DNA of 64,000 bases from Calliopsis andreniformis (Eukaryota > Arthropoda > Insecta > Hymenoptera > Andrenidae), in contig NC_135071.1 of the NCBI RefSeq assembly GCF_051401765.1, positions 8,472,961-8,536,960 of the forward strand, given 5' to 3'. Under the pieces are notes generated by a model. It was not told the DNA's origin. It did no database searches and saw only the letters and a program-made list of their open reading frames with translations. Positions 1 through 63,700 of the stretch are shown piece by piece; position 1 is the stretch's first letter; every line of letters starts with the position of its first letter. The position numbers and the translations under genes were made by a program.

Positions 1-1767
1 GCCAGCGTGTCCCTCGAAGACATCTTTCACCGAAATTTGACTGCTTCTCGAGGGACGACCTTGAATTCCCAGAGGATTTCCAGCCACTCCGTAAATATTA
101 TTCGCTCCTAACGTTTGCATTTGTGATTTTCGTCTTTGCGCCATGATGCTGTTCCTTCGGCCCTCGAAGGCTTTGAACGCCTTCGCTGAACGTCTTGTAG
201 ACATGTTTCTTGGCAGACCTATTTAAAAACAATCATAAAGGTTCATAAAATTAAGCAAGAAGACAATGTAGAAATAATAAACTAAAAGAGTAAAATAATA
301 ATAAACATTCTTTGTATAAATACTTGTAGTATTATAAGAAACGATACAATCTAATAAGTTCTTTATTATTTTACAACTGAAATTCTTAATTTCAAGCTGT
401 GAATAAATAAAACTGAAGTATCAAACTGTATTTTAAATATTAGGATAGTCTCTAACAAGATTTTCTAGTCAATTTCCGTTTTCTTTTCAAACGTGAACCG
501 TATACATGATCAAAAGTTTTCTTTTATACTTTCCACTTATTTTCTCTTATGAGACAGTGCATTTAAACGAAAGAAGATTTATGTGTCTGCACTTTGACTT
601 TTTAAAGGGTATTGGAACTAGTCACGTGCAGAGCTTAAAACTTGAATATTCGACCTCAGTTAGTTCTGCTCGATTTATGAAACTTTACAGACCAGAGGAA
701 TTTTTTTTAATAAATATGGACATAGAAATATTAGGAAAAGTTGTGCACACGTTCAAATTTTTAAATAGAAAAAAGAATTTTCACACGATTTGTAGACTTT
801 CTGATCACTGCGCGCAGTAATGAATATATAGTTTCTAGTAAAATAGTTGCGTTTTTCTATCTTAATTTAGTATATACGACTAATTGTTATTATACAAAAC
901 TCTAAACATTATATATTTTTTGGTAGCTTTCTTATTTATTCACAGATAGTTCTTTTGGAGTCCCAGTAATCATTCAATTAAGCCACATTATTTCCTGTCT
1001 CTTTACAATTACTGTTATCAATTGTTATTTGTGAAGTGTGTTCATAATAAAGCTTGGAGCAATATTCTACCAAAGCAATCTAGGATTGAAAATGAATGTC
1101 TGTTCAGAATAAAGAACGTGACAATATTTTCAATTTTGGCCAAGAAACATTCTTTTTCAACCCCCGTGTGATGGGAAACAGTGTAGAGACCACTTCCTCC
1201 AATTCAAATCTCTTTTTAAAACGTTCCATTCCCCCAGCTGTCGGTTTTTTTTGTAAAGCAAACACGCCTTCCGATTTTTTTCTCTCACCGTTTCCGTCGG
1301 ACATACTGAAGAATCGTTGCCTGAAGGCGACGTCGAGTGTATTGATCGCCTGCGTTTTTCTTCGGCTCTTTTCGAGATTTCTTATAGTCTTTCTTCTACC
1401 AGGCCCGCTGCCACTGCCTTCCTCGTAATCACCTTCCATTCCGTCTAATCTTTGTAAATCCCTGACTATTTCCACCGCGTGTTTTGACAGCAACGCCTCC
1501 TCTGATAGATCTTTCGTCTGGCAAGAGCAAACGAGAAAACGATTGAAGAGAACTGTGCCAATGGGACTCACTCAACGAACCCATGGTTTTAATACTGACC
1601 TTCTTGCAGCAGTACCAGTCCAGGCTGGTGCTGGCCAAAATGTGGGCGAACGTGCCAAATCGATGGAACAGCATCGCGGTGAATTGAATGATCAATATCA
1701 GGGCGAAGAAGAACACGAAGACCAAACCGATTGGTTCGAGTTGTAGGTACACCTTTGTGATGTGTAC
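1..1767 (-). CDS. kkv: CHS1 exons 17-19: C-terminal helices and basic tail (partial at window edge)
   Basis: Exon 17 (1600-1767) begins VHITKVYLQLEPIGL and holds a long helix (VFVFFFALILIIQFTAML), then FHRFGTFAHIL and LDWYCCKK, all conserved in insect CHS1. Exon 18 (1289-1517) encodes TKDLSEEALLSKHAVEIV, the basic GPGRRKTIRNLEKSRRK and LDVAFRQRFFSMSDGNG. Its donor is the strong ACG|GTGAGA; the open frame continues past it only by chance. Exon 19 (1-218) starts after AATAG and encodes RRNSIMAQRRKSQMQTLGAN and SSQISVKDVFEGHAG before leaving the window. The remaining few dozen residues and the stop codon lie to the left. Confidence 0.92.
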
Positions 1768-4700
1768 CTACGAGACATAATCGTTGTTAGGAGACATTGA
1801 CGAATGAGATAGCTGTGCTTAAGATATAAATAAAGAGGTGGGAAAGGAACACGTAATATAGTCAACATTGCGGCTGCTCGTTGTTACTTCATTAGAGGAA
1901 CAAAATTGCAAGGGACACGCTTATGAAGATTAAGATATTAAACGTTGTGGGGTCACTGTTGATTCTTGACTCATATAGCGTTGCGGGCTTATAACGATCC
2001 TATTTAGTTATTATCAAATTTGTTGCTCACGTTTGATATGGCTACAAAGGTGCTTGGTTGTATAATAGAACTCGGTTTGTATGAACTACATTTATATGAA
2101 TGAAATCTAATTAGTGCTTGATTTACTGAATTTTAGGCATCACAGCATTATTTCACTTATATAAACATTTAATAAAACAATTTCAATGACAGGGGCTCAC
2201 CTTATGCATTTTGCTTTGAAACTGATAAATTTAGATAAATGATTTTTCTTGATATTTAGTATTTTCATTTCTCGTTATTATTTATTTCAAAATATATATT
2301 TTATATTAAAATTGGTTGACAATTATAATATAAGTTATTTGTCCCCTATAGGGGATAATGTTCAATTAATTTAACGTTAATATATTGTGTCAATTTATCC
2401 ACCTGATACAGTATCTTTATTACAAAATAAATCAAGCATTTAATTAATTTGGCTGTACTACATAACTGTAGTTATTATACTCGTAAATTTATTTCTAAAT
2501 TATTATTATTTGAAACGTTACTACGTATTTATGAATAAATGCTTGACACAATCCACTCTTATTATGTGAGCGAAGAACCATAATGAGGGGAGAAAATTAA
2601 GTGAATTTTTATTACATGGACCTGTTTTCTTGTCTTCCTACCATTTCATTCAAACGGAATACTATAGTAGTTATGCTTTTCACTTAATTAGTTACGAAAA
2701 TTTATCTCTGAAACTAGAATTTAAAAATTGCAACAAATAAAGACTTTAAGAATTTCAAGATTTGATGATTCAAAAATACAAAACTTCGAAAACTCAAATG
2801 TACAAGTAGGTATCCAATCATTCAAACATTATACTTCTAATAAACTTTAACATTACTTAACATTCACGCAACACTAATGTTATCAGAAACAATTCAAAAT
2901 AAACAATTAAGAATTAAACTACTGAACTATTGAATGTATCCAGTGACCACCATTTATATAAACAAAAGAGCAAATTGTTATATTCTAATGAAATAACAAT
3001 ATACTTCCTGATCATAAGCAACGATAGTTTTCAGAATCCAATATATTGTCATTGAAATTAGTAACTTAAGTTTCACATTATCTGCAAAAAAGTTTTATTG
3101 TGGATATCAGTAACTATCGATATTATGAACAGAATGCCGCAAAAAATTTGTATTAAATTACACTTAAATATACACAAGACATGTAAGCCACCGTTTAGTT
3201 ACATTGACAGTAACTCGTTAGTGGTGCTCCTCTGCTGTCATACCTAGCAGTGCATTGTCAGAATTAGACACACGCGCGCATACAATAAGAAACGTGAAAC
3301 GAAAACCTGCGTGACAATCCTCCCTCGTTCGTATTCAGGCAGGTGAGTGGAAAACTGAACAAGGTTTCGGTATGTTTTCTGACCTCGACTCTCCCGCGTT
3401 CCGCAAACCGTGCAAGTGCCACTACGAATTGAGAGATAAAAGCTACACCTCCAACTAACTAGGAATTAACAACTCTAATGAACAGGAACTATCAACATTT
3501 TTGGATCGCGAGAAAGTCAAGGGGTACAGAAGTCAAAAGAACACTTTGGACAAGATTACATTCTTTGTTATTCAATGAACTCGAATGAAAGCAACTGGAC
3601 AAATAGTTTAGAATTTTGTGAAGCAACTTGACAATTTTTTATCTATTGCCGCAGTATTTTCTCGTTATAATCTCATTGCTGTCTTGCAGTTTTGGTTTTT
3701 GGAGCATAATTTTTACTTGCGTAATAAAAATTTGTTTAATGTAAAGTGAGAGCAATTTCATTAATAGTTTAAGACTTCTGAAAGCTTAAATGTTTTAAGT
3801 ATTTAAGAAATTGGAAATTCACTAAAATAAATATTAGCAAGAACCATGTGTATTCACATTTTATAGCGATTATTTATATTTCTCTACTTGTCATGAGTAT
3901 TCCACTTTTTCTTCCTTTTTGTTAACCACCTATTAATAAGCTTTTTCGTTTTTAATATTCTGAAAAATTTATTAAAATATTGTAGCTAAACTGTACTGTA
4001 GCTAAATATTAATTCATAGTACTGTAATAGGTATAATGCTGAAAATACAACCAAAATAACATAAAGTGGATAAAAGATGTATTTTTCATTTAAGCTGCCT
4101 TTATCATTATTAAAAACAATATACGACTCCCTATGTGCTGTAAACTCATCACTGAGATCGAGCTGCGAATTTATAAGGAGAAAGTACTGTATACTCATGC
4201 AGGTTCAATTTAATAACCGTCAAACTGGCTCTTCAGACTTCTGCCAGTTAATGTTAGTCATTGTGAAGATCCTAGAATGTGAGTGATTGTATTAAAGACT
4301 ATTGTCTGCTTCTAGACAACAAAGATACAGGGTAGAAGAAAGGATGGATAATCTCGATTAAAAAGGTGACGACGTTATTTGGTGACTTAGCTAACTAGCT
4401 TCTAGTCAGATGCTTGGTTCCGCCCCGACTTCCATTCGATCTGGCTGTACCTGTGCAAACATGTTAATAGTCATTCGCCACGTGCTGATGATCCATGTTA
4501 TTGACAAAACATAGACATGTCCCAGCAAGTGCAACATTATCACCGGGTACCGATTCCCAATGTGCTCAGTTGCTCGTCGCATAATCTATTGTTTACGTAA
4601 CACAATAAATCGATTGAGGAAATAATTAAATTAATCTTCAGGATTATTAACTATGCTGCTAAACAATAATTTAAAAGATGCTAAAGTTTCTTTGTTTCAC

Positions 4701-7700
4701 TGTTTCATTTGATTACTAACGAATAGATAATGGAATAGATTTTTAATTAATATAATGAGAGATCCTAAAATGTAACATTTACTTTTTAATAAATGTTTCA
4801 CAATTTGTGGAACACGTCCAATCAAATATTCAAATTTTCAAGTTCTCTAATTTCCTAATTAAAAAGTTTATATTAGGAAATGTTCAAACTTTCAAATTTC
4901 TGTTATATTAAGTTTTTAAATTTACAAATTGTTGAAATTTGTTAATTTTCAAATTCTGAAATTACTACATTTTGGAGATTATCGATGATGATATTCAAGT
5001 ATTCAAATATTTAAATATTCGAGTATTCGAGTACACAAATATACAAGTATTCAAGTATTCGAGTATTTAAGTATTCAAATATTTAAATTTTCTGATTTTT
5101 AATTTTCTAATCCGTAAGATAGACAAAATAACTTTAATTATTAATTTTTCATAAATTATTAGTGACATCCACCCAAAATGGGTTAATGAAACATTCGGCC
5201 AGATGAGTACTGCAAACTGGCAAAAACTCGACAGAAAGTAAGCATTACACTCCAGGAAGTCTCTTTGTAAGAATACGTGACGTGTTATAAAAATTTATAA
5301 ACTTTAAGCAAAAATATCTGAAGTCGCTCTCAATAGCGCTGAATGCTTTTTTCGTTAACTCTATTATCATTCTCAGGTATATTCTTCTGGATTTGATCCT
5401 CTATCTTCATATTAGTTCATTTACATTTACATAAAAAGGAGTTCAAAATTTAAAAAACGAGGAAATCAGTATTTCCGGGGGTCAACAAATGTTACTAATT
5501 ATTTTACTTATATTTAATACCAAAATATGTAACAATAATAATTTATCATTAAATATAAAAACCTTTCTACCCTCCAACTATTCTAATAAACTAATCCCAA
5601 ATTCTTTTTCAAAAAATTGACTCCCTTGTATTAACTAACACACAAAATTTAAACCCCATCAAAATCTTCAGCCGTTCCCTATCTAACAACCAATTATTGC
5701 AATTATGTAGAAATGCGTCAAGCTCAGGGCACAAGGCTTCGTTGCCACTGTCGATAGCTCAATTAACAGAGATCTTTCAACTAGACGAGGCCAACGTTCG
5801 ATTTCCCATCTAGTAGCGGCCAATCAACGAATTCTTTTTTCGATTTGCAGACTAATACCCTCTGCTTCGTGTAACGTGTTTCGATTTCGATTCGCTGCCG
5901 CACTAAACCGCTATCGGACGTGAAAAATCGAGAACGAAGAGGATAGACAGACAGCGCGAGCAACGGAGCACATCGGAGGTGTTAGTCTCCCGAATTATCA
6001 GCGAGACAGCGCGCGTCTCTGTTCCACAGTTTCCGTTTCTTTTTTGGAAATATCCAGGTACCTCCGAGGTCTCTTCGATGAAGGTGATATTCGTCTTGGC
6101 GCCGAGCGGCCAGACAACGTGCAGCTGATCTTTGTTCAGCTGCAGCAAGAATACGATCAGAACGAACAACGCATTGAACATAAAAAACGCGAACACGCTC
6201 TTGTTCCGTAGCTCGACCAAGTCGCCGGCAATGCGAGCCTGTCGTGGATCAGGGAAGAAAAAAAGCATAGATTAGATAATATGTAGAAAAATACGCTCCG
6301 TCCAGTCGCTGATCCTATAACTCCTTGGGGAACCTTTTCCGAAATCCTTTTTTTTGACGTACGAAGCTTCTGAGTATAGTGGAACCTCGATAGCTGCGCA
6401 AGATGGGGTTCAGAAAACATGCAAGCAGTACTGTCCATAAATGCGATTACCTATATCAATTTATCCCCTTCTGCAGCTTGTGTTCTATTTCTGTGAGCCA
6501 CAGAGCAGAAAAATACCACTGTTTGGACAGCACTGTGTACAAATATCAAGGTTCTATTAATACTAGAACTACCATTAATTAACGTCTACCTCTTTCCAAT
6601 GGAGCAGTTAAAATAACAATTTGTAAAAAATACTTGACTCAAATAGTATTAATGTATTGCATTTCGTATCTCTTTAAGATATATAATACTTGAAAACAAA
6701 ATACAATATTTAATGAACGACCATGTCAGTCATTTTAACTGCATTGATATTTCTAGTATTAATACAGCAGGCGAGGTTTGATAGCGAGATCCCACTCTAC
6801 GAAGAATCACGATATTATGATTACTTCAGATATCGCATGGAAATTGTAATTTCCTGCAAATTTTCAGATCCTTGTGAAATGCCGATTTATGTTCATTTTG
6901 TCTGAAAATTTGCTAACGTTTCAAGTATGCCTTTCCTATACTTTAAATGCGAGAACCTAAGATTTCGTTCGAGTGGGATGAAGGGATGAAATTCAAGGAG
7001 CAGGATAACTCGACGTGGACGGAGCGGTCTTTACCTCCTGTGAGCTTTCGTCATAGGTGATGTTCGTCTTGATACCGAATGGCCACTTCACGTGCAACAA
7101 GTCTTTGTTTAATTGCAGCAGAAAGACGATCAGGACGAAGAGGGCATTCATCATAAAAAACGCGAACACGCTCTGGTCACGTAGGTCCTTTAGATCTTTG
7201 GCGATTCGTGCCTGATGTAAGCAGCGTGAATCGATTATTCTTTTGGTTTACTACCTTGGAAATGAATTTCCACTTTTTCATTTGTCATCAATCTTGTACT
7301 TTCAGTTTTCTAGGATTCTTTCTAACCTTTTTTTCACAGTATTTTAATATCCTAAATCGCGATTTCTGAGAAAGTATTATTCTAAATGAGTACAACAACT
7401 GGATGTATTTCATAAATGAACAAAGGTACCGTAAATAACTTGAAATTTTGGAAATAATTTGAAGAAAGTGCTAAAACCAATTTTTCAATTTGCATAGAAT
7501 AGAATACCCGATAGTACATAATTATTTAAAGAATTCTAGTGTGAGACTATTCATTTATAAATGAAATTTAGAAAAATCTGATTTGTTTTGCAAAAGAAGA
7601 CAGCTTTGTTTAATCTCCTTGAAATTCCCTACTGAGTATAAAAATACAAAAATACATAATTGATTGATATAACTAAAGCATGATAACATGAATTCAAATG

Positions 7701-10700
7701 ATTATACGATTTGTCGAGAACAATGAATTATATGTATTGAATGTATTGAATATATTAAAAAGAATCACTCTCTACAAAAAAAAACAAGCAAAAATAAATT
7801 TTTACTTTTTTAAATTCATCAGAAATTCTTATTACTTTTAAAAATGAGATCCAATTAATGTACACAGATAAGGAACGACATATTTTCTTTGATATTTTAT
7901 AGTTACTATGATCATACGGAAAAGCGTTGCAATAAGAAACCTTTACCTTCTCTGCCTTATCCTCGTCTATGGGATACAGATACTTCTCCAGAAGATCCTT
8001 CCAGAACTGTTCCTCCTGCATAGACAAGACGTCGATTTCTCCTTTCTTCAGTCCGTCGTCACTCAGCCAGTACGGTCGACTGAGGAAGTTGCTGCCTTCG
8101 CGATTGCCTTCAGTGTTCTGACTGGTCACGGTTTCCGGTTCGCTCTGACAGTCCTGGTCCTCGGCAGGATCCTCACCAATAGCGCCAAGATGATCAGCAG
8201 TCCGTGAGCCTACTGAGGACGCTCGTCGTCGACCGGAGAGCCCATGTGGATCAACGGCTCTAGAAAAAGTAAGCAAAGCGTTTTCCTAACTACCAGATTT
8301 TTCCAGTTCTCCATTCACTATTCAATTTCTAAGTAAGTACCAATAATTAACTAAAACGTATTAAAATTAAAAAAGGTAGGGTAATTTGTTTTGCTCCTTG
8401 ATGAAAAAATATGAGATTGATGCATATTAAATGTCGGTCGTTTAAGTTTAAAGTATGAAATTAAGCCCTGATGTTATGTTTTAAATTTTGTTTGATTTTT
8501 ATAACTCACATTTTTTAAAGGCTTGTCCATACTTTGAAATAGAAGAAAAGGTAATGACAAACACGCCTCAACAATCGATAATTAGTATTAGTTTGTAATA
8601 AAAAAAGATACTGTTTTTAAAGGTACCTTTCTATCGTGTCTAATCGTTTTCCGAGCTGTTCTAAAGATTCAGCAATAGCAACCAACTGTTGCTTTTCGTT
8701 GGAAGTCTGGCCATGAGTGCAGAACATGCATTTGAACAGTCCTGCTAGAGAAATTTCTATCGATCCTTCTTCGTCGTCGCTCGATCCAACGCCATTTTGT
8801 AAGAAACCTAGCAAGGATTTTTGTTTCGCTTTCCGTTTTGCTTCCTCGGCCTCCTTTTTCTCTTGTTCAAGTTCCTGATAATTTGATGAGAAGAATATTG
8901 AATAAATTAATGTCCTCTGTTACATAAACTATATCTGATATAAGGAATTGTTAAGATGAAATACAAAGCTGATCGAAAGCTAAAAATTGCATATAGCTGA
9001 TTGTATTCACTAATAATAAATAATAATTCTACAAACAAGTTAATTAGTCCTACAAGCATTTAAGAGCTAGTAACAATATGTTTAGTATGAGCTGCATTGT
9101 CAAAGAAGAGTACCTTCAATAAATCAAAAGTGTCTTTTAAATGTATTTTTCACGTAAAAGTACTTTTTCTAATTCCAAATTTCTCTTTTCTACGTTATTC
9201 TTAAAAAATAATTTTTCCTCGGTATTACGAGAATTCTTAAATACGTATGAAATGATATACATGTAGTAAATTCTTTGTAAATGTACCTAAAATTTTTTTC
9301 AAATTTACATGTACCACAAGACAAGTCTTCATCTTTTTTCTGTTACTTCACGTCATCAGTATGTATAACCTTGCATGTAGCAAATGAATATTAAAATTCA
9401 TAGGTTGTTGTATTCCTCTTAATATGATGTACTACATGGCTCAAAAAAAATTCCATTTCCATTTAAAACGATAAAATCGCTCTTATATCAAGAGAACCTA
9501 ATATCGATCACCACAAAAAAAGTTCTCTTTTGTTGAACAATGCAGCTTTTGTTAAATTGCTTCGGGGTCATTCCACGGGAAATTGGACACTTTTTGGATT
9601 ACCACCTAGGATTTTGTTCAAATTTGAGTATATTGTAGTCTTTAGTGATATTTAAACGTATGTCAAAAGAATTTTCCAAATTTTGAAAATTGTCGATTTT
9701 AGAGCTGCTCAAAGTATAGTGCTAACTTTTTTTCAAATAATTATAATTCTTGAACCACTAAACGCACGAGAATAAGCTTCTGGGTAGTTATAGTGAACAC
9801 ATAAGAGTACTAAAAAAATTGTTTCAATTTAGAACAAGTTTTTTTAAAACACTTTTTTTGTAATTTTTTTAAACATGTGCGACTTTTTAGTACTACGTAC
9901 GAATTTAAAATTTTGGAAAATCCGAGGTGGTACTCCAAGAAAAGGCCGATTTCTAGTGGAATAACCCTTCGACGAAGCTCAAGTAGTGATTTAATCAACC
10001 ATGTGTATTATATTGTATTATAGAATTACTATGTTATTTGTTAGTTTTGACAATTATTGATTTAAGGAAAGATAATACCAAGTGCATCACAATATTATAA
10101 GACCTGCATCTTGAAATAAAAACAGCCAATGGTATTAAATTATTATCACCTAACTTAGAAACATCATCCAATTGGAAAAATTGTTTATCTGAAAATCATT
10201 AAAATTATAGTATAAAAAAATGTACATACGTTAATTATAGTACAATATAGTGAAAATGTCACCATATTATCATCACATTTTAACATCCAATGAGTTCTAG
10301 GGTACCAAAATAAATTTTTACTTCTTGTCTTAAATTTCCCCAAATTTTCATATTTTCTAACACCATATTGGCCGTGATAATTTCAAGGCTGCACAATTAT
10401 TAACACATTGCAGATCAGTAGCTTCGTTATAAGCCTTAGTCAGTGGCCCTACATAAAAGGTACAATACTTTTAAGTCCTATGTGGAATGTTTACTAAAAG
10501 ATAGGAGAAAAATTGAAAACAAAAAAATTGAATTCTGTATCACAAAATAAGACAAAAACTTTTTGACGAAACTGTTTATCTCTAAAAATTTTAGTAAAAG
10601 GAACTCGACACTTGGCAACTTGTCAAACATTTTACTCGTTATGTTGTCGAATCTGAAAAGCATTTTACCTAAATTATTAATTGTTACTACAAAGATGTTC

Positions 10701-13700
10701 AAATTATAAAACTTATTTTGTAAACAAAGCAAGAAATCTATATACTTTAGTCAATATGATTTAATATATTTTGTATTAAACCTTGATAAGTTATCGTAGT
10801 TTCTTCATCGTAATGGCAAATGTGAACTAAATTTCAAAATTATTAAAAGACTACCACTCAGTTCTAATTCCTTTGTCCTTGATTTTCACCTTAATTTGTC
10901 ATGTACAATAGAATCACTTCTCAAATTTTCTCCTACCTATTGTCGAACCCTCTATATGATCCGTCCACAATTTGTTAATATGATAAGGGTAGAAAGAGAT
11001 GGAAAATATGTTAATAATGCAATCAATTACCGCAGCGGTCTTTTTAGTCCTTATTTCCCTCGTACCCCATGTAATGTCATTCAAGTTACTGATGGCGTAA
11101 ATGATAAGCAACACGTACATCGATGGTACGGTTATGAAGTATATGAGACTGAATAATAGGCAATACAGTTCCCTTGGATGTAAGAATGCCGTAATCCCCA
11201 GTTGACTTATCAGCAATATTATAAACATTGCGGACGGTGACAGTACTCCATCATGGACAATGCTTATTGCGATCCCAACGATGACAGCGACCATTACCAT
11301 GCCGTACAAGGCACTGATTATTGCCGCTGTAGTAACCTATCGTACCATGGTTAATATGTTAATAATTGAGTTAGCATTTTTTGTTCAATCTAGGTGCGCA
11401 TATACTACCATTTATAAGTATTTGGAAACTTGGAACCTGGTTAAAACATTAGTATCTTTATTGTACAAGAAAATTTTTCTAAATGGATTGTTATCAATGA
11501 ATGTTATTAATAAAGATCTATGATAAATCTAGAGAAACTATAATAATACGAGTTATATTCTAAAAATTTGTTCAACTAGATGACTAGTTTAAGGCTACGC
11601 GTTTATTTAATAACAGCTAATTTATGCTGTTTTTAATCAAAGCACTTTAAAGCCACTTTACGGAGGACTTTAGAATTCATGGGTCTGTTTCTTCAACAAA
11701 CGAAACGTTCGTTCTTTAACGATGTTCTGACGACTATGTTTGAACTTGTCTTGATCATACGATAAATAATTCGGGCATATTCGTCAGAACATCAATTCAC
11801 CAGAATACGCATCCACTGTAACCGCAATCTTAGAGAAGTTTCCACTTAAACTAAAAATATAAACGTTTTAATCAGGTTTCATCAACTGTCCAAGTACTTA
11901 CAGATGGTAATATCTAGAATGCATCGAGAATTATCGAATCTTCGTTAAAGGACCAGAACATTCAATTTAATTACATGTTGAGTTAACGTCTATACTACAA
12001 GCAGTAAATAAGTCAGTACATGAAATGGATTGAGAAGACGTTGGTAACGACAAGATCTCGATGCATCAGATTAAATTATTTTGTTATCGAACGAGGACGT
12101 ACATTGGCAAACGTAGAAGCTGATAACTGCGTTGCGTAGAAATTTGAAAACAGAGGCACCTGCCACCTTAAAGTTAAACACTTGTTTTAATGTGCCACCC
12201 CCATAATATTCTGAATATTACATCGCTGCATGGTGTGTATTATTATACAGGGTAGTTGTATTGCGTGGATTTAATAATTGATAAAGCAAAGCAAATCGGA
12301 GGTAAAACGAAAGGGGGCAGTCGACACGAACCTTCTTTGTCTTTTTCACTTGGACCTCACGTGTTCCCCAGGAGACCACGTTCAAATTTATAATCGAGTA
12401 GAGGATCAGAAGAAGGTACATAGACGGAATCGATAGGAGATAAATAATGCCGTGCACGATACACCAAAACTCTTGGGGATGCAAACAGGCAGCTATGAAA
12501 AAGGAACTGGACAGGGATATCAAGAAAATGGCGGATGGTGAACCGATACCGTCCTCCCCGAGCTGGAGAGCCGTACCTACGATCACGGCCATCATTATCA
12601 GCGCGTATCCTGTTGATAATATCTGCGCGCACAGAAGCTGAAATACGAGGACGTTCAGAACACTGACAAGTAAAGCAGACGACCATGAACGAATCACTGG
12701 AGTGAACAGACTTACCTGAATATTTGCCTTACACGTAAAACATACGATCATAAATAGTAAAATAGGAATAATGTTGTAGTAAAAACTAGTCCAGTTGTCG
12801 ATCTTGAAGGCAGCCACGAAGGCACCCACCAACATGAGGAAAATCGTACCCGGTCCTAAAATGGTACCACCTAGGAAAGAATGTATGTCATTATCGATTG
12901 CTGGCTTTTTAGAGAATAAAGTGTTTGTAATTTTAATAAATCTATAACTAACCCATGAGTAAAATTTGATAGAAGATGTATGGAAGAGAAATGTTATCGT
13001 TAATTTTGATAGTTCGTTTTGCGTCCATCAGAAGGTCCATGATATTGGCTATAGTCGAGGGCACCCATCGACGACGTTGATTGTAGAATTCGTTGAAACC
13101 TTCGGGTGCGTGAGTATATGCATCGCTAGCTGCAGAATACTCGACCTGTAACAGATATAAACAATTTAAAGTTATTAATTTACATTTTATTGTATCCTCC
13201 ACATAATGAGACTTTAACATTACAAAGTACTTTAGCATCTATGCTACTATACTAATATTTTCAAAATTACCTTTTATACATATACTCTTACTAAACTACA
13301 TAACGAGTTTACCCTATATATATTTGCTAGAGTATATTTATTCTATAGAAAATTATTAATGACAACAAAGACTATCTAAAAGGATACCTGATGACAAATG
13401 AAATGGATTGAAACGCAGTAAAGGTATTAAAAGCTATTTTGCAATATATTCATTTATCTTGTAAGCAGACTCAGTTATGATAAGGTCACTTATTCAGCCC
13501 TCATTAAAGTTTCTAAATACCTACCCTGTAACCTCGTTGTAATAGCAGCGTACAAAGCCATCGATCCTCTCCCTGGTCATACTGAACGTAATGTCTCGCC
13601 TCGTCAGACCTGGTAGTGTACTTCTTCATCACATTATCATCCATCAGAGCCTTCCCTCTGAAGAGCGAGAAGCAGCCAGGACTACAAAGCACGCAGCCGA

Positions 13701-16700
13701 TCATGTGCTCGGTCGCCTTCTGGAGCCAGTGACCAATCGCGTACTCGAACTTTTGATACCAGACCATTGGACCTGATGAGATCAAAATGGAAAATGACTT
13801 TAGGAGACTGTATTTTGTACTTAACCATTTGATGTTTATTTTATTACTATCCTGACCTGAGCCAACTGGATGAATACGACCACAAGCTGCTCCAAGGTTC
13901 TTGTTCTTTTTCATCAAGTCTACGAGCAGTTTTACTGCAGCCGGTTGGAAGTCAATATCGCCATCAAGAGTCAGTAGGTAAGTGTTCTCCGCGATTACCT
14001 CTTTACGATCCACGCTAATTGGTAACTCCATTAATCGGTGCCCCAGCAAATAGTACATGTACATCACCTGAAGATAATGTGAAGGTGATAATCTTTGTTA
14101 GTCAGAGAACAAAGCAGATTTTTTGAACTGTTCATGTATAGAGTATTCGACGACATGTGTCAGAAATTTAAAGAGGTGATTCTATATAGCAAAATAAGAT
14201 ATTATTTAACATAATTAATTGCTAAAGATACACCTAAAATTCATATAAAATGTGTCTGACTCTGGGACTTAATTTACTTGCGACACGCAATAGCAAATCA
14301 CGCGAAACAGTGTCAGTAGAATAACCTAATAGAATAAGTCAAGTCAGACACGCAATTTCGTAATTCTTGATTTGCAAACTATTAATACTAGCTTGTAATA
14401 CTCTTAACCCCTAACTATTAACATGAAGTCTGGTAGACTCTACATGATAATACTTTTACTATTGATTTCGTTTAAATATGAAAAGCTTTATACTGAAAAT
14501 AGGAAATATATGTCATACCTTGTTCTTTTAATTTATTAATTATGTCTTTGTGCCACTTAAAATTCTGTATCCGTAGTTGAAGGATGATACCATTCAACAA
14601 CCCTAACTTAACCAATTTACGACTAATCTACAATAACCGATTAAAATGGGACACTCTGTACCAGTAATGATAGCAAAGAAGTTTTGTGTCATTTCTGAAC
14701 TATATTATACCTGACTCCAACGTTTCCTATGACGGATCTTGCTCTTGTCCTTCAAATGAGCGATCATCTTCGTCTTGCCAGGAAGAGTCCATACCAATCG
14801 ACCACCATAAGGCGTTGGATATTTCTTCGGCGCTCTCACGTGCATCCTAGTCTGATGAACATCCGATGCAGCTTCATCCAAAGTGCCCACCAACAACTTA
14901 ACGAACCTGTTCACCTGCGACTCGTTCTCATCGTGATCCGATAACTCGAAAGCGTCATCGAAGAAGATATGAGCTGAAGAAACAAATTCATATCACGTAC
15001 AGAGTTCCCTCCAGGCAACCAAAAAGCAGTAGATAAAAGTTTGAATAAAAAAACGATTAGCATTTTAATAAAAAGACACCTCAATTTCGTATATCCCGAG
15101 GATGCCTTAAAGTATTATTTACACTGAAATAAACTAAATTCCTATATCTTACTTTTTAGAGGTACCATGAGATATTGGCATTAATATTTACAGACAGCAT
15201 ATGTACTTAGCTATTCAAGAGAAAAGTTTCATAGAGACACTGTGCATGGATATACTACTCTAGTATAAGTGATTCAGGACACAAAGAGTTCGGATATAAT
15301 TTTTTCTGTACATATTAGCAAAGCAGAAATAACAGAAATACTTAACAAAATTGAGATTGAACTTACTTTCAAACTCGTAGTAATCCGGATCAACAACCTT
15401 CAGATATTTTTGTGCGACACGTCGGGCACATTGATCCTCATCAAGTCGCAGGATACTTTTCAAGAATTCCATCATTTCTTCCTTGTTCTCATGCCACATC
15501 GTCGCACAGGCATAGATCCTTGTTACATGATCGCTACTTTTTACAGCTGACGGAGGTGTAGTTGAGCCGTCCGTTTGCTCGTATATAGTCTCGTAATCTC
15601 CATCTCCTTTTTCCTTCTCTATCTCCGCCAGATCCTGCCCGACAAAAACACCATTTACGTTTTCATATAAACGATCGTATACTCTCCCACTCTGTTGCTC
15701 GAATCCTCAAACGCGACGCTAACCCAACCCAAAGACTCGTAAACTCGTATATTGCCAAGCCGCTATATGTATTCGACAAATGTAGTTTTACATTAGCACG
15801 ATCTCAGATCCTTCCGTCGTGAAACGAGGAAATTTCTTTCAGCGAAAAACTTGGATATTTTTTTACAATTGCATTCTTAAAGGAATCTGCTAAAAATAGA
15901 TATTTTTTTAAAGTAATACGCTAAATACGTTATTACTGGTATATTGAGTTACTCATTTGTGGTGGAATAAAATTGTTAGTATATTTAACTAACTTGATTT
16001 TTATTACTTTTGATTTGAACGAATATGGGTAATAATCATTAATAATATTAACCCTTAACTGCTCTTGTGGGATCCTGCAAAACCCTAGGTATTATATTAT
16101 ATTACTTGATAGTTTTCTTGTGTACTGACAGATAGCTCTTAGAGTCCCAGTAGTCTTTAGTTAAATTAAATTGTTTCATATGTCACTTTGTCACTGTGTT
16201 ATCAATACGTTATAATAAAGTTTAAAAAAATATTCTTCGTAAATGGTAGTTCTTATTTTGTTATTGGAATATCATAGGACTCCACTAGAAGGTTATAGTT
16301 CTTACGTTTCACCAGAGCAGTTAATCCTTTCCACTAGATTCTCTCTTCTAGAAGTGCTAAACAGATTTAAAAGTACTTTCAGCATAAAGAATTGTGCTAA
16401 CCTACCTCAACCTTCACTTCTGGCTGATCGTCTCGTTTTCTATTCAGACCCATCGACTGGTCGATTAGCAGGGAATCGTACATAGGCATCACAAAAAGCT
16501 TTTCGGTGGCAGCGAGACGTTCGCATTTCGGGGTCCACACATGGAGTGTAATCCATGTTTGTGACAGCAGCCAAAGCAACCACACCCAGGCGTACTGCTT
16601 CGATATGAAATCATTGAGGAAATTCTGCTGCGGAGACTCATAGAAGAGATAGTCCGGAATGGTGCCGTGGAAAATGCAAGGATCACCGCTTCGCAAACCG

Positions 16701-19700
16701 CAGGCGGCGATCAGCAGGGATATTGATACTGGTATTGTCAAATTCACGGGGAAGGCGTAACTGAATCCTTGAATTAGGATTTTGCACGCAAATTTACCTG
16801 AAAAGAGCAAAATATGATTTTTTTGTGTGAATTATCACATTGTGCAACTAAATATGTGCATTAGCGGTCGAATGTTTGGAATTGTTTTTTAAATTGAGAA
16901 AAGTAAACGGATAGCTGTAACAATAATTAATTTTATTAATTTATTGCATTTTTTTATATAATGAACATTGTAATTATTTCAAACTACAACTTCGAGCTAT
17001 CTACTTTGCTATACACATGTATAGTATAACTTGAATGAGAATTAGCAAGTGGTTCCAAACTTTTGGCTGGCAATGTATAATCAACTTCTGTAGTTTAAAA
17101 TTGTTAATGGCTATGATTATTGATTAGGATAGCAATAGCGACGGAAATTGTACTGCCTTAAAAATATCAATACTTTTCCTTCAAGTCTCACATGAAGCAA
17201 TAACCATTTGTGTTATTGGGCACTAAAAGTTTAGTATACCTTTCCTACCTAATGGTTTAACGGCACTCATTGTCGAGTGCATAGCTTTAATATGCATTAT
17301 ACAGTCAACAAGTTAATGTTTTACAATTTACACATCCAACGAACTGTATCGTTAAAGAGTATTGCAATCATTGGTTGTTGCTTATTAATTTGTACAACTG
17401 TGAAATGTTTTCCTATTAAAAGTTATCAAAAGAAGAAGAAGACTATAGCGTGAATGAAATATTAAGAAAACTTGGAATGAACTCACATCTTATGAAGAAG
17501 ATCTAGTGAGTCTTTCATGGCACTTAGAGTGCCAAAGGGATTTTTTAATGAGAAATTACAATATGTTACCTATATGGACCGACTGTAAAATTACCTTTGT
17601 AAAAACTGTGACGAAATTTCTCGGACTAGAAGGATGAAATATTGCTTTGATTAAAATTACCTGCAGCAAATATACCTTTGCTACATTTTTTTAGTATCAC
17701 CAGCTTTCAATCTTACATTCACGAGCTACAGAGGTATTTGATTTTAATTATTCCCGAATCCCCATGTTATACAATTACTGTGAAATTTGAGGGTTATCTA
17801 TATTTCGATATTTTATTAAAAAAGACATACTCACCGAAAATGTACGCGAAGTAGGCACCAAAGACTTGCAGCAACAATACGTAAATTGGTGTGTTGACAT
17901 CGGCAGGTATTCTATCACCGAAATCTATCACGTCAGCGATATCTGTGATCGTACTGGACGTCTCTGGTCGTATATTCGATACTATAATCTGATGTTTCCC
18001 AAAAGCGCTGCTTAACATCGAGAATAAATGTCCCACAGTTTCTCCCTTGATGTGAAGTATCAATAGGGTACTGATGAAGAATGCCAGTATCTTCCAGACA
18101 GATATGAACATATAAGTGAAATATCGCGTCAATCTCATCTCTTTCTTCACTCTTCCCAAGGACCGAACGAATCCTGTGGATAGAAGACACGAATAATCGA
18201 TTCTGAGTCGCGCCTTTTTGTCTCGAGTTCTTGTAACAAAGGACATTTTCTTTCATGCGCTTTTTTATCTGTACTGATCTTTAGATAGAAGCATTAGGAT
18301 AGGAAAGTCATGGACACACGGTTAGAAAGTGACGGGTAATTTAAGAACCGGAGGAGATTCGTAAAAACGAATTTACCGCGTAATTTTATACCTATAACAT
18401 TAAAAATTAAAAGTTTATTCGATCGCAACTCAGTTTTTTAATATTTATCTATGATAATGGTACAGCTGCCTACGACTAAGCAACCACTTGTTGCCTATCG
18501 AAATTTGTTACGAAGATAAGCACTGAAGTCGATTGGCGATTTGTCAAAGATTAACACATGCCCTGGTATTTGAATCTTGTATCATCGAAGAAAAAATTAA
18601 GAAAAAAGTCGAAGAGAAAGTAAAGGAACATAGTATCTTTTCACTGTTAAATCGAAACTTCAAATTAACATTAAACTCTCTGTATGTAAGATTAGCCAAT
18701 GGGTTGAAAAACAAAATTAAGTACTATTCGAATAAGTTTTTATATGTATAAAATTTTAAGAAATTTTACACAAAACAAGTTTATAACAGGGGATATAATT
18801 CTAAGTCAGCTCATGCTCATGATATGTCACTCTGAGTTATGAGAAAGATATGAGTGACAGTGTGCGTAAGGAAAGCTCTTATGTCCTCGATGATTTTAAG
18901 ATATAGTGAGCATAGCGAGGAGCTTATCACGAGAAGACACAGTACTTACCAACAGGACTTTGCATGGAGACGTAATTTTCCCACCAGCCGCAAGAAATCA
19001 AAAATAGGGTTGGCGGTATGAGCCACACGGATGGTCGAGAGTTATCCAGTAAAGGCCAAAGGAAGAAACTTGTGCCTTGAGCGGCTAACGCAGCCATATC
19101 GATCAGCACCAAGACAAATCTCTTCGATTCGTCTTTGTTTTTATTGCGGGAGAGAAGCCCTTAAAAGAAACAGTTCGTCTTTATCTTACTATTCGATTCG
19201 AATTACTTCTGCTGATAATGGCACGGAAGCAATGTCTTCGTTAATGGGAAGTGTTCCCCTCTTGATTGAAGTATAGGGAATCATCCATCAATCAAACTTG
19301 AGGAAAAATATATTTTGGAAGGGAAGATTCTATAAATGATTATAGGTTGAACGGAAAATCGCCGATTTTTTATCAAAAACTTTGGCTGAAATCAAACTAA
19401 ACTTGATTGGCTGGAAATTAGTGTATTTTTCATTTTCAATCCATTAATTTTAAATCCCTATGATTTTTCTATGAGTAACAGGTAATTGATATTTTTTGAA
19501 AGAAAAATGACTGCCTTTTTAAATGCAAACTAATTGTTTCTCAAACATTCTTTTCGTATAAATTTTTGAAGTAACTATTACTTCTTTGTCCTTCGGCTGT
19601 AATTTTAACGGCTCCGACTTTAACGTACTGATCGAAAGTTGAAAACAATTTTGTAAAACTGTTGAAGTTAAAGCGATAAGAGGAATTCCATGAAATGTCT

Positions 19701-22700
19701 TCCCTTACCTAACAACCCAGGTACAAAGCAGACGCAGTTGGTCAGCATCGCGCCTTTGACGACATCCATGTCAGGAAGCACCGCCATGAACATTAAAGCC
19801 AAGCCAACTACGTGGAAGGTCTCCATAAGAAAAACGAGAAGGAAATGCGAAGCAGGTGGCTTCTTCCATGATTTGAAAATGCATATCCGAATGCTGCGAA
19901 TCAGTGTGCCGAATTCTGGCACCGCGAACGCAATTATGATGCACCAAATCCATGCTATCCTCTCTTCCTCTGTTAATGTTGCTACAAGTTGCTTGTCCCG
20001 GCCTGCAAAAAGGAAAATTCCATGAAGACATTATCTTATTATTAAATGTGAATAATAAGTGAAATTTGTTTCTTTGAATCAAGGAGAGTAGGACCTCAGT
20101 CGATGCAAAAAGACAGGCTGAAAATTGTATGCAAATATCAAGGTAATCGAGTAAGTAATAAGACCATGATAAGTGGTGTAAACATGAAACGATTTTTGAA
20201 GAAATTTAATTAACGAATTTAATGAAGTCTATCTAAATCTTCTCATGTCTTGATAGCCTTCTGTTTTCTATTATTCTATTAGCAAGTAACATTATGTATT
20301 ATTCTTCGATTTTCTTTGACTTCACATATGTTGTAGTACTCAAAAAACTAAGTGAAACATATTTTTTTATAACTGCAGATATTTGATTTAAAAAAGATAA
20401 TTGGAACTTTTGATAAAAATATTGTATTCTTTTGCATTTTAATCTGTGTGTAGAACATTTTTTGTTATAGCAAACCTACTATAAAATCTCAATTCTTCGA
20501 AGAGATTTATTTTTTAAGGCATTTTTTTCTTCTCGTCATACAAAATTTATTTGAAATGAATTAGTGTTAATATTTATTCTGTAAAGGGATGTCGGTTTAA
20601 ACATTTACTTTATATATAATCAGAAAATAGATTTTTTTCTTTTGGGGCAAACTATTGAGGCAAACATCAGAAGGTAAAGTATAAGAGGAGATTATGTTCC
20701 TTATGTGGGGAAGGAAAAATCAACATGGAGGTAGTTTATCCTTAAAAAACAAACCCCTTCGAAAAATTGGAATTCCATAATAGATTTTCTACGACAAAAG
20801 ATATTCTACAGACATTGAAATTCAAAAGAATTCAATATTTTTATCAAAAATTTCAATTATTCTTGTTACATGTTAAATCTTTGAGATTTATTGTGAGTTT
20901 CACCTTTTCAAACTGAATATCTGCAGATATAAAGCAACACGTGACGCTTAGTTTTTTTAATACTACAAAGTATGTAAAATCGAAAAAAGGGTAAAAAAAA
21001 ACACTTACCTAGTGTTCCTCATAAGTGACTAAACAGTAATATTCAAAGCGTATTAGAAACATTGATCAGACTTTAGTCTTCAGTGATCAAATTCCTTTAA
21101 AAATCGGCTTTAAATCATATCGCTTAACATTACTTCAATATTATAGAAAATTGAAAAATATGTTAGTAGTCTACTTTGAACAATGAAAATAAAGTTCTAT
21201 GTGTACATATCTGGACCCCAGAACCAATGTGTATTAAGTCCACAAAACACATTTGTTTTCTTTAATATACTTGTTTTCTGTGTGACTTCTATATGACTCT
21301 CCTATTGTTTCCTATTCTTTCAGTATAGTGAAAGCTCTTCTGTACAACAGAATTAATAGACAGGTACTGAGAAGAGAGGTCGAACAGTAGTAATCACATC
21401 GAAAGGGAAACCCGCAGCAAAAAGTTCCGCGACAAAATGCACCAGAAGGCTCCATTTATAGAATGTAATAATTGCTTTCGTTATCTAAGATCGAGTGACT
21501 TTGTACACTTCACACTGCGAGCATGCACAGCGGTGTTTCAACCTGTTTTCACGTACTTTCTCTCCTTTGCCTGTAAGATGTCCGTGTCGGCAGCAAAAAC
21601 GTTCCGCTGTAATTGTGTTACGAGTATGATCCACTTTTTACATTATTTTGTGCCGGTTTCTAAGATCGTTTTAACAAACTACTGCACAGGTTGTATGAAA
21701 AATACGCGACTGAAAAATTCTACTATTACGTTCTAATTCGGATAATAATTCTCGCTTTCTTGTGTCTATATTGTAATAAATTTTAGCAATGTGTTACATA
21801 GTTTTATCTGTCGTAACATTGCAAATAATTTATCTAACATTAAGTTATTCTCAGTGGAACGACTAAAATGTAGGTGAAAAATCAGTTCGAATCTATGCTC
21901 TAAAAAATTAGTCACATTCGAGTAAAGAATAACACCGTACAATTGATTAATTGATTTTACAACTTCTTTAAATCTAATTAATCGTTAACAGTCACAACAA
22001 TTATCTACGGTAATTTAAAAGAAGAGGAAATTACTTAATTGCATCTTCTTCAAGCACTATTTTGTTCAGTTTATTTTCCGATTCTTCTGACATACTTGAG
22101 TTTTCTTAAGTATAATCCAGTTATACAGAGTGATCAACGACAACTATCAAAAATGCTAAGAAGTGATTCTACATGCCAAAATAAGACGAAAATTAAGAGT
22201 GGCGAAATTGTACTTAAGGATCCGTTTTCGAGGTATTAATTGTTCAAGTTAGACTTAGAATACCTACGCATACAATGTGTCTGACGTGAGAATTTATTCT
22301 ACTGCCAGGGTGCACTAGCCAAGCCGCGCTTAGTGATATCAGTAGAATAAATCCCCTAAGTCAGGCACATTTCAAGCATATTTTAAACGTTTTCGGAACA
22401 ATTGGAAACTCGAGAGTTGAGTCTCAAACGCAATTTTGTCGCTCCTTAAAATTTTGGTTACCTGTTGTCGAGTACACTATACTGTTCAATCTTCTTTAAA
22501 ATGTAAAACTTGTCTAACATGTCATCCCACACGTATATCATTTTCAAACAAAAATTTCTCCTCGTTTCAGCCCTTTTTTCCCAACATTCGATTGAATATT
22601 TAAACTGCAAAAGTTACCACAAAGCTTCTATATCACTCCAGTTCAACGTAACTATTGTACCTGAGGTTTCGTAAGCCAGTACAAATTGCAAACGAGCCAC

Positions 22701-60789: not shown

Positions 60790-63700
60790 TCATTTTCCCA
60801 TTCCCACCAGCGCCTCGTCCATGAGTTCGTCGTCGGTGATACATGGTGAGGCGGAATGTGGAGACGGTGGAATAACCCTCGGTGAGGGTGCAGGGCTTTT
60901 TACAATGTGCACGCTCACAGAAGGACTGGCTGGAAAGGCAGGAGGAGGGGGTGGTGGCGTGTTCCTGCGTACCGAGGCTGCCTGGGTCATCGCCCTCTCG
61001 GGAATGCTCGTGAAGTTCAGACTCTTAGCCACGTCTTTCGGGGTGGAAAAATCCAGTAACATCTCCGCGGCCTCTTGCGATGTCGTCGTCGGTATCTCCG
61101 TCACAGCCGTTTTCAACGCGCTTGATGGTCCCTCAGAGGACACTACGTTTCCTAATGAGGAAGAACTCGAGGATGCTCCGGAAGGCGGCACCTGCGGTTG
61201 CTGTTGCTGCTGCTGCTGCTGCGGCTGTTGTTGTTGCTGCTGCTGCGACTGCTGCAGTGGCTGCGGCTGCGGTTGTTGTTGCTGCTGCTGCTGCTGCTGT
61301 TGAGGCTGCTGCGGCTGTTGTTGCTGTTGCTGCTGCTGTTGCTTCTTCTCCTCTGATTTGTACTTTGTCATGGTCGCATCGACTGGTTTGATACTCAAGT
61401 TCAAGCTCTCCGAGTTTCCGTTGCCAGAACTCGGAGCACTTGTTCCGTTCCCGCTTGTTATAGTGCCAGTCGTCATCATGGCAGGGTACACGGGTTTGCT
61501 GGTAGACTGTGTGTCGGTAGCTTTTGGTAGAACGGCCATTACAGAACCACTGCCAGCGACATCCTCCTTGCCACTGGCAATAGAGTTCAATGTGCTACCC
61601 AGAAACTGCGTGTTACTCCTGCTTATAGATGGCTCCTTGCACGTGTCGCGGGACTCGCTTTCAGTCGACTGCATCGAGAGATTCGTGGGAATATCCATGT
61701 CGTGCGAACTGCTGCTGGATAAGGCGGGAAGCAAAAGATTGCTGCTACTGTCAGTAGCGAGGTTCATAGACATTACCGAGGCTGCACTTGTCATGGAAAG
61801 ATTGTCTGGTTTCGTTTGTATGTGATCTCTTCTACCTTGACCCGACTGATCTTCCGACGTTACTTTGGGAACCGCCGACGAAGTATTCGATATCGCTTGG
61901 AGTTTCCCCTGTTCCGTCGATTGCTTTGTCGCGAGATTGTCCAGAGTCTTCCCTGTATCGGGAAGCATGGAGAGCTTCTCCGATTTCTTGTCGCTGGAGT
62001 CTGCATTAGCTCTAGCTGATAGTTTAGGTATTTGAAATTTAGTGTCCAACTGCTTCATGAGACCTTCAACGACCAATTGCGGCGGAAGATTAGGTAAACT
62101 CGATAAGTTCGACATGGAAGCATGGGCAGCCAGGAGCTTGAATGCTCGTTCGCTTTCGCTTTCCTCTCGTAAACCAGAAGGGCTTGATTTTCTAGTATCC
62201 CCGATTCCTTTCCCAGGAAATATACTTTTTTCGCTAGATTTCGATAATCGAGATTTATCGCGATTTCGGCTGAGATCTGTTACCCCCGAACTGGTTGTTT
62301 TCGGTGAGCTTGAAGAAGACTTCGAAGACATAACACTCTTGGAAAGTAATCCGCCACTGCTACTACCACCCACGCTAATTCCTCCAGCACCGTTACCGCT
62401 GCCAGAATTCGGTCCTGAGATAGACTTTAAAGCTGACAGCATCTTTTGACCCAATAATGTCGTTTTACTTCCACTACTGCTGCCAGGACCGGAAGACGAT
62501 GAACCAGACAACTTTGGTGACGTCTGAGAGGGAGGTTTCTTCGACGCAGGACCAGAGCTGACTCCTGGTTTTAAACCAGTGTGCGTTTTCGGCGAACCAT
62601 TACCGGACATACACGTCGACGAAGTGGATGAACTCGAAGACGTTCCAGTAGCAACTGACGTCGATGACGAAGATAACTTAAGGTTTGTTCCGGATTTCGA
62701 ATCTTTTGTGCGGGTTTTATTGATCGTTATCTTCATTCCGTCAGAACTATGCTTCACCATGTATTCTGCAGGATTTTTCGACTCTATGGATGAATTCTTG
62801 CTAATACACTTCCCATCAGTAGTCTTGTTCGATGAATTTCCGACACTCTTCTCTTTCTGGCCACTTGAGTTGCCACTTCCACCAGTGGCAGTTTTCGTTC
62901 CACCGTTGCCACTGTCATCCGTACAGTGCTGTGCACTATTTTTTAGCTTGTCAATAACGGCACTCAAGGATCCTTTTCTATTTCTAGCCTGCTGATGAGC
63001 AATAGCCGACTTGCCGAGTTCAGAGCTGCCGGAAGGAGGCGTGCTACCGCCGCTACTGGGTAGAGCAGCCTGCGTTTCCCCGCTAGGAATTAATTCCAGT
63101 TGTTTTAACTTACCGCTAGACGACTTTGTTTTAGGACTCTGGTGGCCGCTCGATCCGCCGAAAGCTAGCGACGACGTCTTCCTTTCCTTGTCCCGGTTGG
63201 AATCTTTGCTCGATGATGATGAGGAAGACTTTATTTTGGATTGTCCGGAGTCAGTGGTTTTACTGGAAGGCGAATTCGCCGCGGATTTCAGCGCGGACAT
63301 ACTCGGTTTACCGGTACTTGCTGAACTACCATGCTTCGGTGACGACGTACCATGTTTTGGACTCACACTCGCAGGCACTGGCGTATGCTTGGGACTACTG
63401 CTATAGACCGGAGAGTGCTTTGGACTTTGCACTGGCTTGTTTGTTGACTGTTTCAATGTAGGACTGGACTTACCTACAAGAGCAAGTGGGCTGGTATGTG
63501 TCGGAGACGGACTAAATTTTCTTAATGTTGTCGCAGGTGACGAAGGTCGTGAGCTCAAATTTGGCGGTGACTCGGTCGGTTTTATGCTCACTGAAACCGG
63601 TTTCGACAAAGGGTCCTGCTTAGATGGTATCTTATCCGGCGGTGGTCCCATAGGACTGTCTTCTCTCTTTCGCTTCCGTCTTTTTTCCAATTTACCCTTA

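Follow-up and report, generated by a model that had tools for sequence, protein, structure and literature searches.

Sequence evidence for a conserved second alternative exon in chitin synthase 1 of aculeate Hymenoptera

Chitin synthase 1 (CHS1, kkv) of insects is essential, makes the chitin of the cuticle and is an insecticide target, and its pair of 59-codon splice alternatives is textbook knowledge. The window analysed here, a stretch of 64,000 nucleotides from Calliopsis andreniformis, contains this gene on its minus strand, and the intron after exon 13 contains one further open stretch with the look of an exon. Is this stretch, here called 13alt, a coding exon of CHS1, and is it taken in place of exon 13? 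The question has some weight. A second switch beside the catalytic unit would amount to a swap experiment done by nature, in which Hymenoptera would exchange, by splicing, the WGTRE segment together with the 89 residues before it, and such a swap makes it testable which helices set translocation, trafficking or the form of the chitin. The features concerned are the following, in window coordinates.

1..24055, minus strand: CHS1/kkv coding region, exons 1 to 19, the last cut by the window edge; from the joined exons
12716..12870, minus strand: exon 12, upstream partner common to both alternatives, ending in CKANIQ; from the joined exons
12332..12637, minus strand: exon 13, the usual exon, 102 codons, ...VVSWGTREVQVKKTKK; 101 of 102 residues as in protein P0022
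11337..12331, minus strand: intron from exon 13 to 13alt, 995 nt
11031..11336, minus strand: exon 13alt, alternative, 102 codons, phase 0, ...DITWGTREIRTKKTAA; from translation, alignment and relatives
8875..11030, minus strand: intron 3' of 13alt, 2156 nt, donor GTAATT (+5 not G)
8627..8874, minus strand: exon 14, downstream partner common to both alternatives, starting with ELEQEKK, with the coiled-coil segment
7035..7211, minus strand: exon 16a, first member of the known 59-codon pair of CHS1
6062..6238, minus strand: exon 16b, second member of that pair, likewise 59 codons

Rebuilding the gene from exon 1 (24055) through exon 18 (1289) gave a coding span of more than 22 kb in the window. 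Every internal border is GT/AG, and joining the exons leaves 1530 residues in open frame, whether exon 13 or 13alt and whether 16a or 16b is used. The known pair, mentioned in the initial annotation, is present. The marks of an insect class A chitin synthase are all present in the joined exons: EDR, QRRRW, WGTRE, the 59-codon pair and, after WGTRE, a putative coiled-coil segment, assigned from its heptad-like ELEQEKKEAEEAKRKAKQK rather than from a score.

Translation of 11031-11336 on the minus strand gives 102 codons (306 nt) without a stop, flanked by AG and GT; the acceptor ends in TACGATAG and the donor starts with GTAATTGA. Exon 13 has 306 nt as well, and the two align without gaps with 50 of 102 residues identical. 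This is just what the initial annotation had counted, and its phase-0 splice sites at corresponding borders are found too, between the end of exon 12 at 12716 and the start of exon 14 at 8874. The pair thus consists of two neighbouring homologous exons that agree in length and phase. It is distinct from the 59-codon pair, as 13alt has 306 nt against 177 nt and lies 5' of the coiled-coil segment. Nucleotide differences between 13 and 13alt number 46, 24 and 76 at codon positions 1, 2 and 3, and within the window dN between them is 0.45, with dS saturated. A tblastn search of the window with the whole protein (E <= 1) returned no other duplicate of exon 13; its sole extra match, of 22 residues at E 0.79, is at chance level. 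An Rfam search of the window gave no match.

A few observations concern other parts of the window. The intron after 13alt contains a 51-nt inverted repeat, 80% complementary (9565-9615 / 9917-9967), which could be a small transposable element. On the plus strand, the open frame at 55630-56076 matches the MBOAT acyltransferases of Pfam (E 1.8e-19) and is an exon of another gene. On the minus strand, a 1069-residue open frame at 60790-63999 runs off the window edge; it is serine-rich, has long glutamine runs and gave no Pfam match at E <= 0.01.

Does 13alt occur elsewhere, and in which context? A search with its 102 residues gave 20 proteins out of 34 candidates. Of these, 18 are near-complete and 52-77% identical to 13alt over the aligned part; P0020 and P0021 are partial and cover 51% and 29% of the query. 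With the full isoform as query, scored on 13alt alone (E <= 1e-5), 11 full-length CHS1 proteins of 85 candidates carry a relative. The end of exon 12 (CKANIQ, CKSNIQ or CKSSIQ) stands directly before it in ten of them, the start of exon 14 (ELEQEK) directly after it in all 11, and exon 13 is absent from ten. The sole full-length protein with both is P0022 (1662 aa), where 13alt follows exon 13. Among the carriers are the apid bees Habropoda laboriosa (LOC108575110 isoform X2) and Xylocopa sonorina (kkv isoform X3) and the vespid wasps Vespula pensylvanica (chs-2 isoform X1) and Odynerus spinipes (KPH14_009451); by lineage look-up all four genera belong to Aculeata. Isoform names running from X1 to X3 hint that both alternatives are expressed within one species. 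The kkv or chitin synthase relatives that bear a species name have Pfam PF03142.

A profile search (E <= 1e-6) widened the set to 551 proteins out of 5522 candidates, of which the best 120 were listed, many of them chitin synthase exons other than 13alt. Among the matches listed, the 13alt clade includes sequences from Temnothorax, an ant by lineage look-up, from Monomorium and Pogonomyrmex, which we take to be ants, and from Ceratina, presumably a bee. In these four genera NCBI models give 13alt as stand-alone chitin synthases of 100-112 residues (P0018, P0058, P0114 and P0038), which are probably exons missed by the CHS1 model. The Ceratina calcarata sequence, P0038, groups with ant-type exons (91.3/89), apart from Xylocopa and other bees, which may reflect a contaminant contig or fast evolution. 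Many frames among P0050-P0134 fall outside both the 13alt and the CHS1 exon-13 clades; they have the same exon ends and other motifs (...APSSLFFFIV..., for example), and among them may be CHS2 or additional alternative exons. The threonine of TWGTRE, which we considered as a mark of 13alt, had to be given up, as several ant-type 13alt sequences, including that of Temnothorax, read SWGTRE. Orthologous loci were looked for in viral_contigs and genome_contigs, and none was found there.

The joints themselves can be followed in a few records. P0024, P0027 and P0028 are frames of 1549-1568 residues whose contigs do not exceed 6390, 5931 and 5997 nt; since these contigs are far shorter than the coding span of more than 22 kb, they are most simply explained as spliced RNA, and we treat them as apparent RNA records. 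P0024 is joined at both borders of 13alt (CKANIQ before, ELEQEK after). The frame of P0005, on the other hand, crosses both borders into the introns (LKLTHQ before, VIIYIL after) and looks genomic, and the two agree in 101 of 102 residues of 13alt. The donor side is repeated by the pairs P0014/P0031 (99/100) and P0007/P0026 (97/100). Taken together, these sequences would locate the two junctions precisely at the positions predicted from the window.

In our opinion the substitution of 13alt for exon 13 is well supported by these comparisons. The initial annotation's description of 13alt as an alternative to exon 13 holds in so far as replacement is seen in ten of the 11 proteins; strict exclusion is less certain, since P0022 contains both. 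Neither the frame nor the spacing (995 nt) nor the type of the splice sites (all GT-AG) enforces exclusion. Pairing of the splice-site regions with the introns was compared too: in ten duplex comparisons on one sequence, no competing RNA pairing was demonstrable, the best having 3 of 60 shuffles as strong.

The splice sites of 13alt are unusual. Its acceptor has 8 pyrimidines in 17 positions, the lowest of the 20 exon starts scored (exon 1 at its ATG). The codons at its donor read V-I in 35 of 42 relatives, and by the genetic code this means GTNAT followed by T, C or A; therefore position +5 is not G in those 35. A conserved off-consensus donor suggests regulated splicing at 13alt, and because 13alt combines it with the weakest pyrimidine tract, exon 13 would be the default. 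Use of 13alt would then need an activator specific to a tissue or a stage.

How old is 13alt, and is it under selection? For an IQ-TREE reconstruction we used 131 of 136 aligned exon stretches, leaving out three duplicates and two stretches filled in fewer than 70 columns. The 13alt rows make up a single clade with 53 tips, a support of 85.3/98 and a tree length of 7.85 substitutions per site; 17 of the 18 near-complete relatives belong to it, and P0019 falls outside. In a smaller quick tree under a mixture model, with 64 rows (23 of 54 alternative, 9 of 15 CHS1 exon-13 and 32 of 65 other), the 13alt rows again lie on one side of a branch, with an SH-aLRT of only 59.9. WGTRE is kept in all 54 of the 13alt rows, and 28 of 102 columns have one residue in at least 95% of these rows (the end columns, 1 and 102, being partly filled). 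At positions 5, 24-27, 32, 41, 45, 83 and 88 the 54 rows never share a residue with the 15 exon-13 rows, a separation that is descriptive only, as the list of 13alt rows was drawn up after viewing the tree of 131 sequences. Position 25 is an example: N or S is peculiar to 13alt, and Q stands in 15 of 15 exon-13 rows and 58 of 65 others. The view that 13alt is old agrees with its relatives in bees, vespid wasps and ants; that it is also selected, as the initial annotation claimed, is very probable, given this spread and its use in full-length proteins.

At the same time 13alt evolves fast within an enzyme that is otherwise highly conserved. Between the window and P0022, the sole pair with both exons, 70 of 102 residues of 13alt are identical, against 101 of 102 in exon 13 and 92.6% in the remaining protein, and the path between the two in the tree measures 0.512 for 13alt and 0.009 for exon 13. 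Over all 11 proteins the identity to the window is 64-75% in 13alt and 85.9-95.0% in the remainder. The greater variation would also fit relaxed constraint.

It has to be asked, then, whether 13alt is an exon of consequence at all. Its open length alone does not decide this. When 306-mers were simulated at the composition of the adjoining introns, only 7 of 20000 were open in frame, which speaks against a pseudo-exon or a chance open frame within the intron. However, in the gene's 15 introns of at least 200 nt the longest run without a stop on the sense strand measures between 31 and 90 codons, and an intron stretch open for 90 codons, like the weak acceptor tract of 13alt itself, is what one would expect on that explanation. 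Where length is not decisive the relatives are: they and the full-length proteins that carry 13alt contradict a chance frame, which we regard as practically negligible, and 13alt is an intact exon rather than a dead copy. A subtler objection is that 13alt is spliced in only rarely, does little and is conserved passively or nearly so. The fast evolution relative to exon 13 and the poor splice sites would agree with this. Yet the frame is kept in 53 diverged sequences over the whole length of their tree (reading-frame databases favour intact copies and would hide broken ones, so that the absence of stops is partly ascertainment), the near-fixed columns persist, and the off-consensus donor is itself retained as V-I in most relatives. 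We find low use with little function rather unlikely.

Another possibility is that 13alt does not replace exon 13 and is an optional cassette that follows it, the real product being 102 residues longer and having an extra set of helices. Indeed P0022 has this order, joint inclusion keeps the frame as both exons are in phase 0, and two membrane crossings per exon, as predicted by the models described below, would preserve the topology. But exon 13 is missing from ten of the 11 proteins with 13alt, among them the apparent RNA records P0024, P0027 and P0028, and P0022 comes from a 17-Mb contig and is therefore probably a gene prediction; an added cassette seems to us very unlikely. The last alternative concerns only the origin of 13alt and is compatible with our preferred explanation, substitution for exon 13. 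The initial annotation took 13alt for a tandem copy of exon 13, and this was not borne out: neither tree puts it within the clade of CHS1 exon 13. It could have been acquired from, or be a relic of, another chitin synthase lineage. Its place in both trees, nearer to other exons, would agree with that, and so would NL-x-D before (S/T)WGT, which 13alt has in common with an oomycete enzyme and which exon 13 of the window lacks. On the other side, forcing 13alt and CHS1 exon 13 into a single clade costs 17.2 log units and is not rejected (p-AU 0.201), with just 100 columns and very unequal rates. We consider such an origin possible and somewhat doubtful. The tree of 64 rows speaks neither for nor against a recent tandem duplication within Hymenoptera.

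What would the substitution do to the enzyme? Modelled alone from an alignment of 71 rows, 13alt has helices at 2-29, 34-52 and 54-83 (mean pLDDT 78.4, pTM 0.50), and exon 13, from 57 rows, at 2-29, 34-52 and 54-84 (mean pLDDT 69.6, pTM 0.41); both single-exon models are of middling confidence. WGTRE stands at 90-94 in 13alt, after three predicted helices, which fits a TM3-TM4-IF3-SWG module. Foldseek with the 13alt model found no solved chain. The profile of the 13alt family does match residues 660-747 of PsChs1 from Phytophthora sojae (7wjm and related; E 2.6e-07, 34 bits). In that enzyme, according to the passages available from PMC9556331, SWG (741-743) lies in the loop from IF3 to TM5, near the reaction chamber, and changing its tryptophan abolishes activity. 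With the helix names of these passages, exon 13 or 13alt would encode TM3, TM4, IF3 and the WGTRE loop. The initial annotation had the last helices of a five-helix cluster exchanged; a pair of membrane helices together with IF3, the interface helix, and the WGTRE loop seems a better description. As to insects, excerpts of PMC9894549 state that Drosophila Kkv without WGTRE stays in the ER and makes no chitin, and those of PMC12431666 that Kkv/Chs2 chimeras joined at WGTRE fail to rescue.

Thus 13alt is a coding exon of CHS1, and we consider it likely that it is chosen over exon 13, with a predicted exchange of helices, IF3 and WGTRE loop. The splicing machinery would pick 13alt in place of exon 13 and thereby swap these parts beside the chitin channel. 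As W-G-T-R-E is kept, the 13alt enzyme would be expected to stay catalytically competent, and its pore lining, IF3 or dimer contacts or helix packing may differ, so that the same gene could yield a second form of the enzyme that differs in translocation, trafficking or partners. More tentatively, and somewhat short of an even chance in our estimate, Aculeata would have two enzymes from one CHS gene through a fast-evolving set at the channel mouth which predates the split of bees, wasps and ants, makes a lineage-specific chitin in some tissue and may even survive from an older exon pair of arthropods instead of being copied from exon 13.

Together with 16a and 16b, four isoforms had been proposed. 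The combinations are indeed possible, but the proteins are uneven in this respect: nine of the 11 have 13alt with 16a alone, and none has 13alt alone with 16b alone. The association of 13alt with 16a may reflect coupling or sampling. The other two proteins are peculiar in themselves. P0032 (Odynerus spinipes) has 13alt together with 16a and 16b one after the other, which is probably an error of gene prediction; P0022, which has 16b besides 13 and 13alt, may be mispredicted or may represent a genuine isoform with both exons. For CHS1 of bees, wasps and ants, expression and knock-down studies that leave exon 13 out of account may overlook isoforms or confound them.

As to novelty, the open-access literature searched (most subscription papers lie outside it) does not, in the parts available, describe an alternative exon in this position; PMC5573318, PMC7828418, PMC7240487 and PMC7370082 offer, as far as their accessible text goes, just general or reference-list mentions. 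The word "undescribed" is therefore fair for this literature and not for the databases, as isoform models at NCBI already contain 13alt.

It remains to compare 13/13alt with known systems. Like the mutually exclusive clusters of insects, they are in tandem, of equal length and phase, and used singly in 10 of 11 records with 13alt; unlike them, they have no demonstrable competing RNA pairing, and one record has both exons. PsChs1 shares with 13alt the profile match including the SWG loop; it is a distant oomycete enzyme, likened at 34 bits by protein only. The alternative site of moth CHS-A, which we take to be exon 2 and N-terminal, resembles 13alt in being a second one beyond the 59-codon pair, and differs in the exon concerned. 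To judge by their titles, papers on OfCHSA of Ostrinia and BmCHSA-2b of Bombyx describe such a site, the Bombyx title calling it "Lepidoptera specific"; the statement that insect CHS1 has only one exclusive pair, made in the initial annotation, is thus right about that pair and incomplete for moths. A further parallel is the 59-codon pair itself, 6a/6b in Aedes and 7a/7b in Drosophila, which is treated in PMC2561029, PMC6355952 and PMC3315501. It too consists of tandem homologous exons of equal length in the same gene, and its choice alters a membrane segment, as portions of PMC2561029 and PMC3315501 indicate. That pair lies near the C-terminus, covers one membrane helix and has copies about 74% identical, whereas 13/13alt covers 102 codons after the catalytic region, includes the essential WGTRE and has 50 of 102 residues in common. 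On the sequences compared, 13alt is best described as genuine: CHS1 of aculeate Hymenoptera has here a second alternative site, which is conserved and has a predicted effect on the enzyme.
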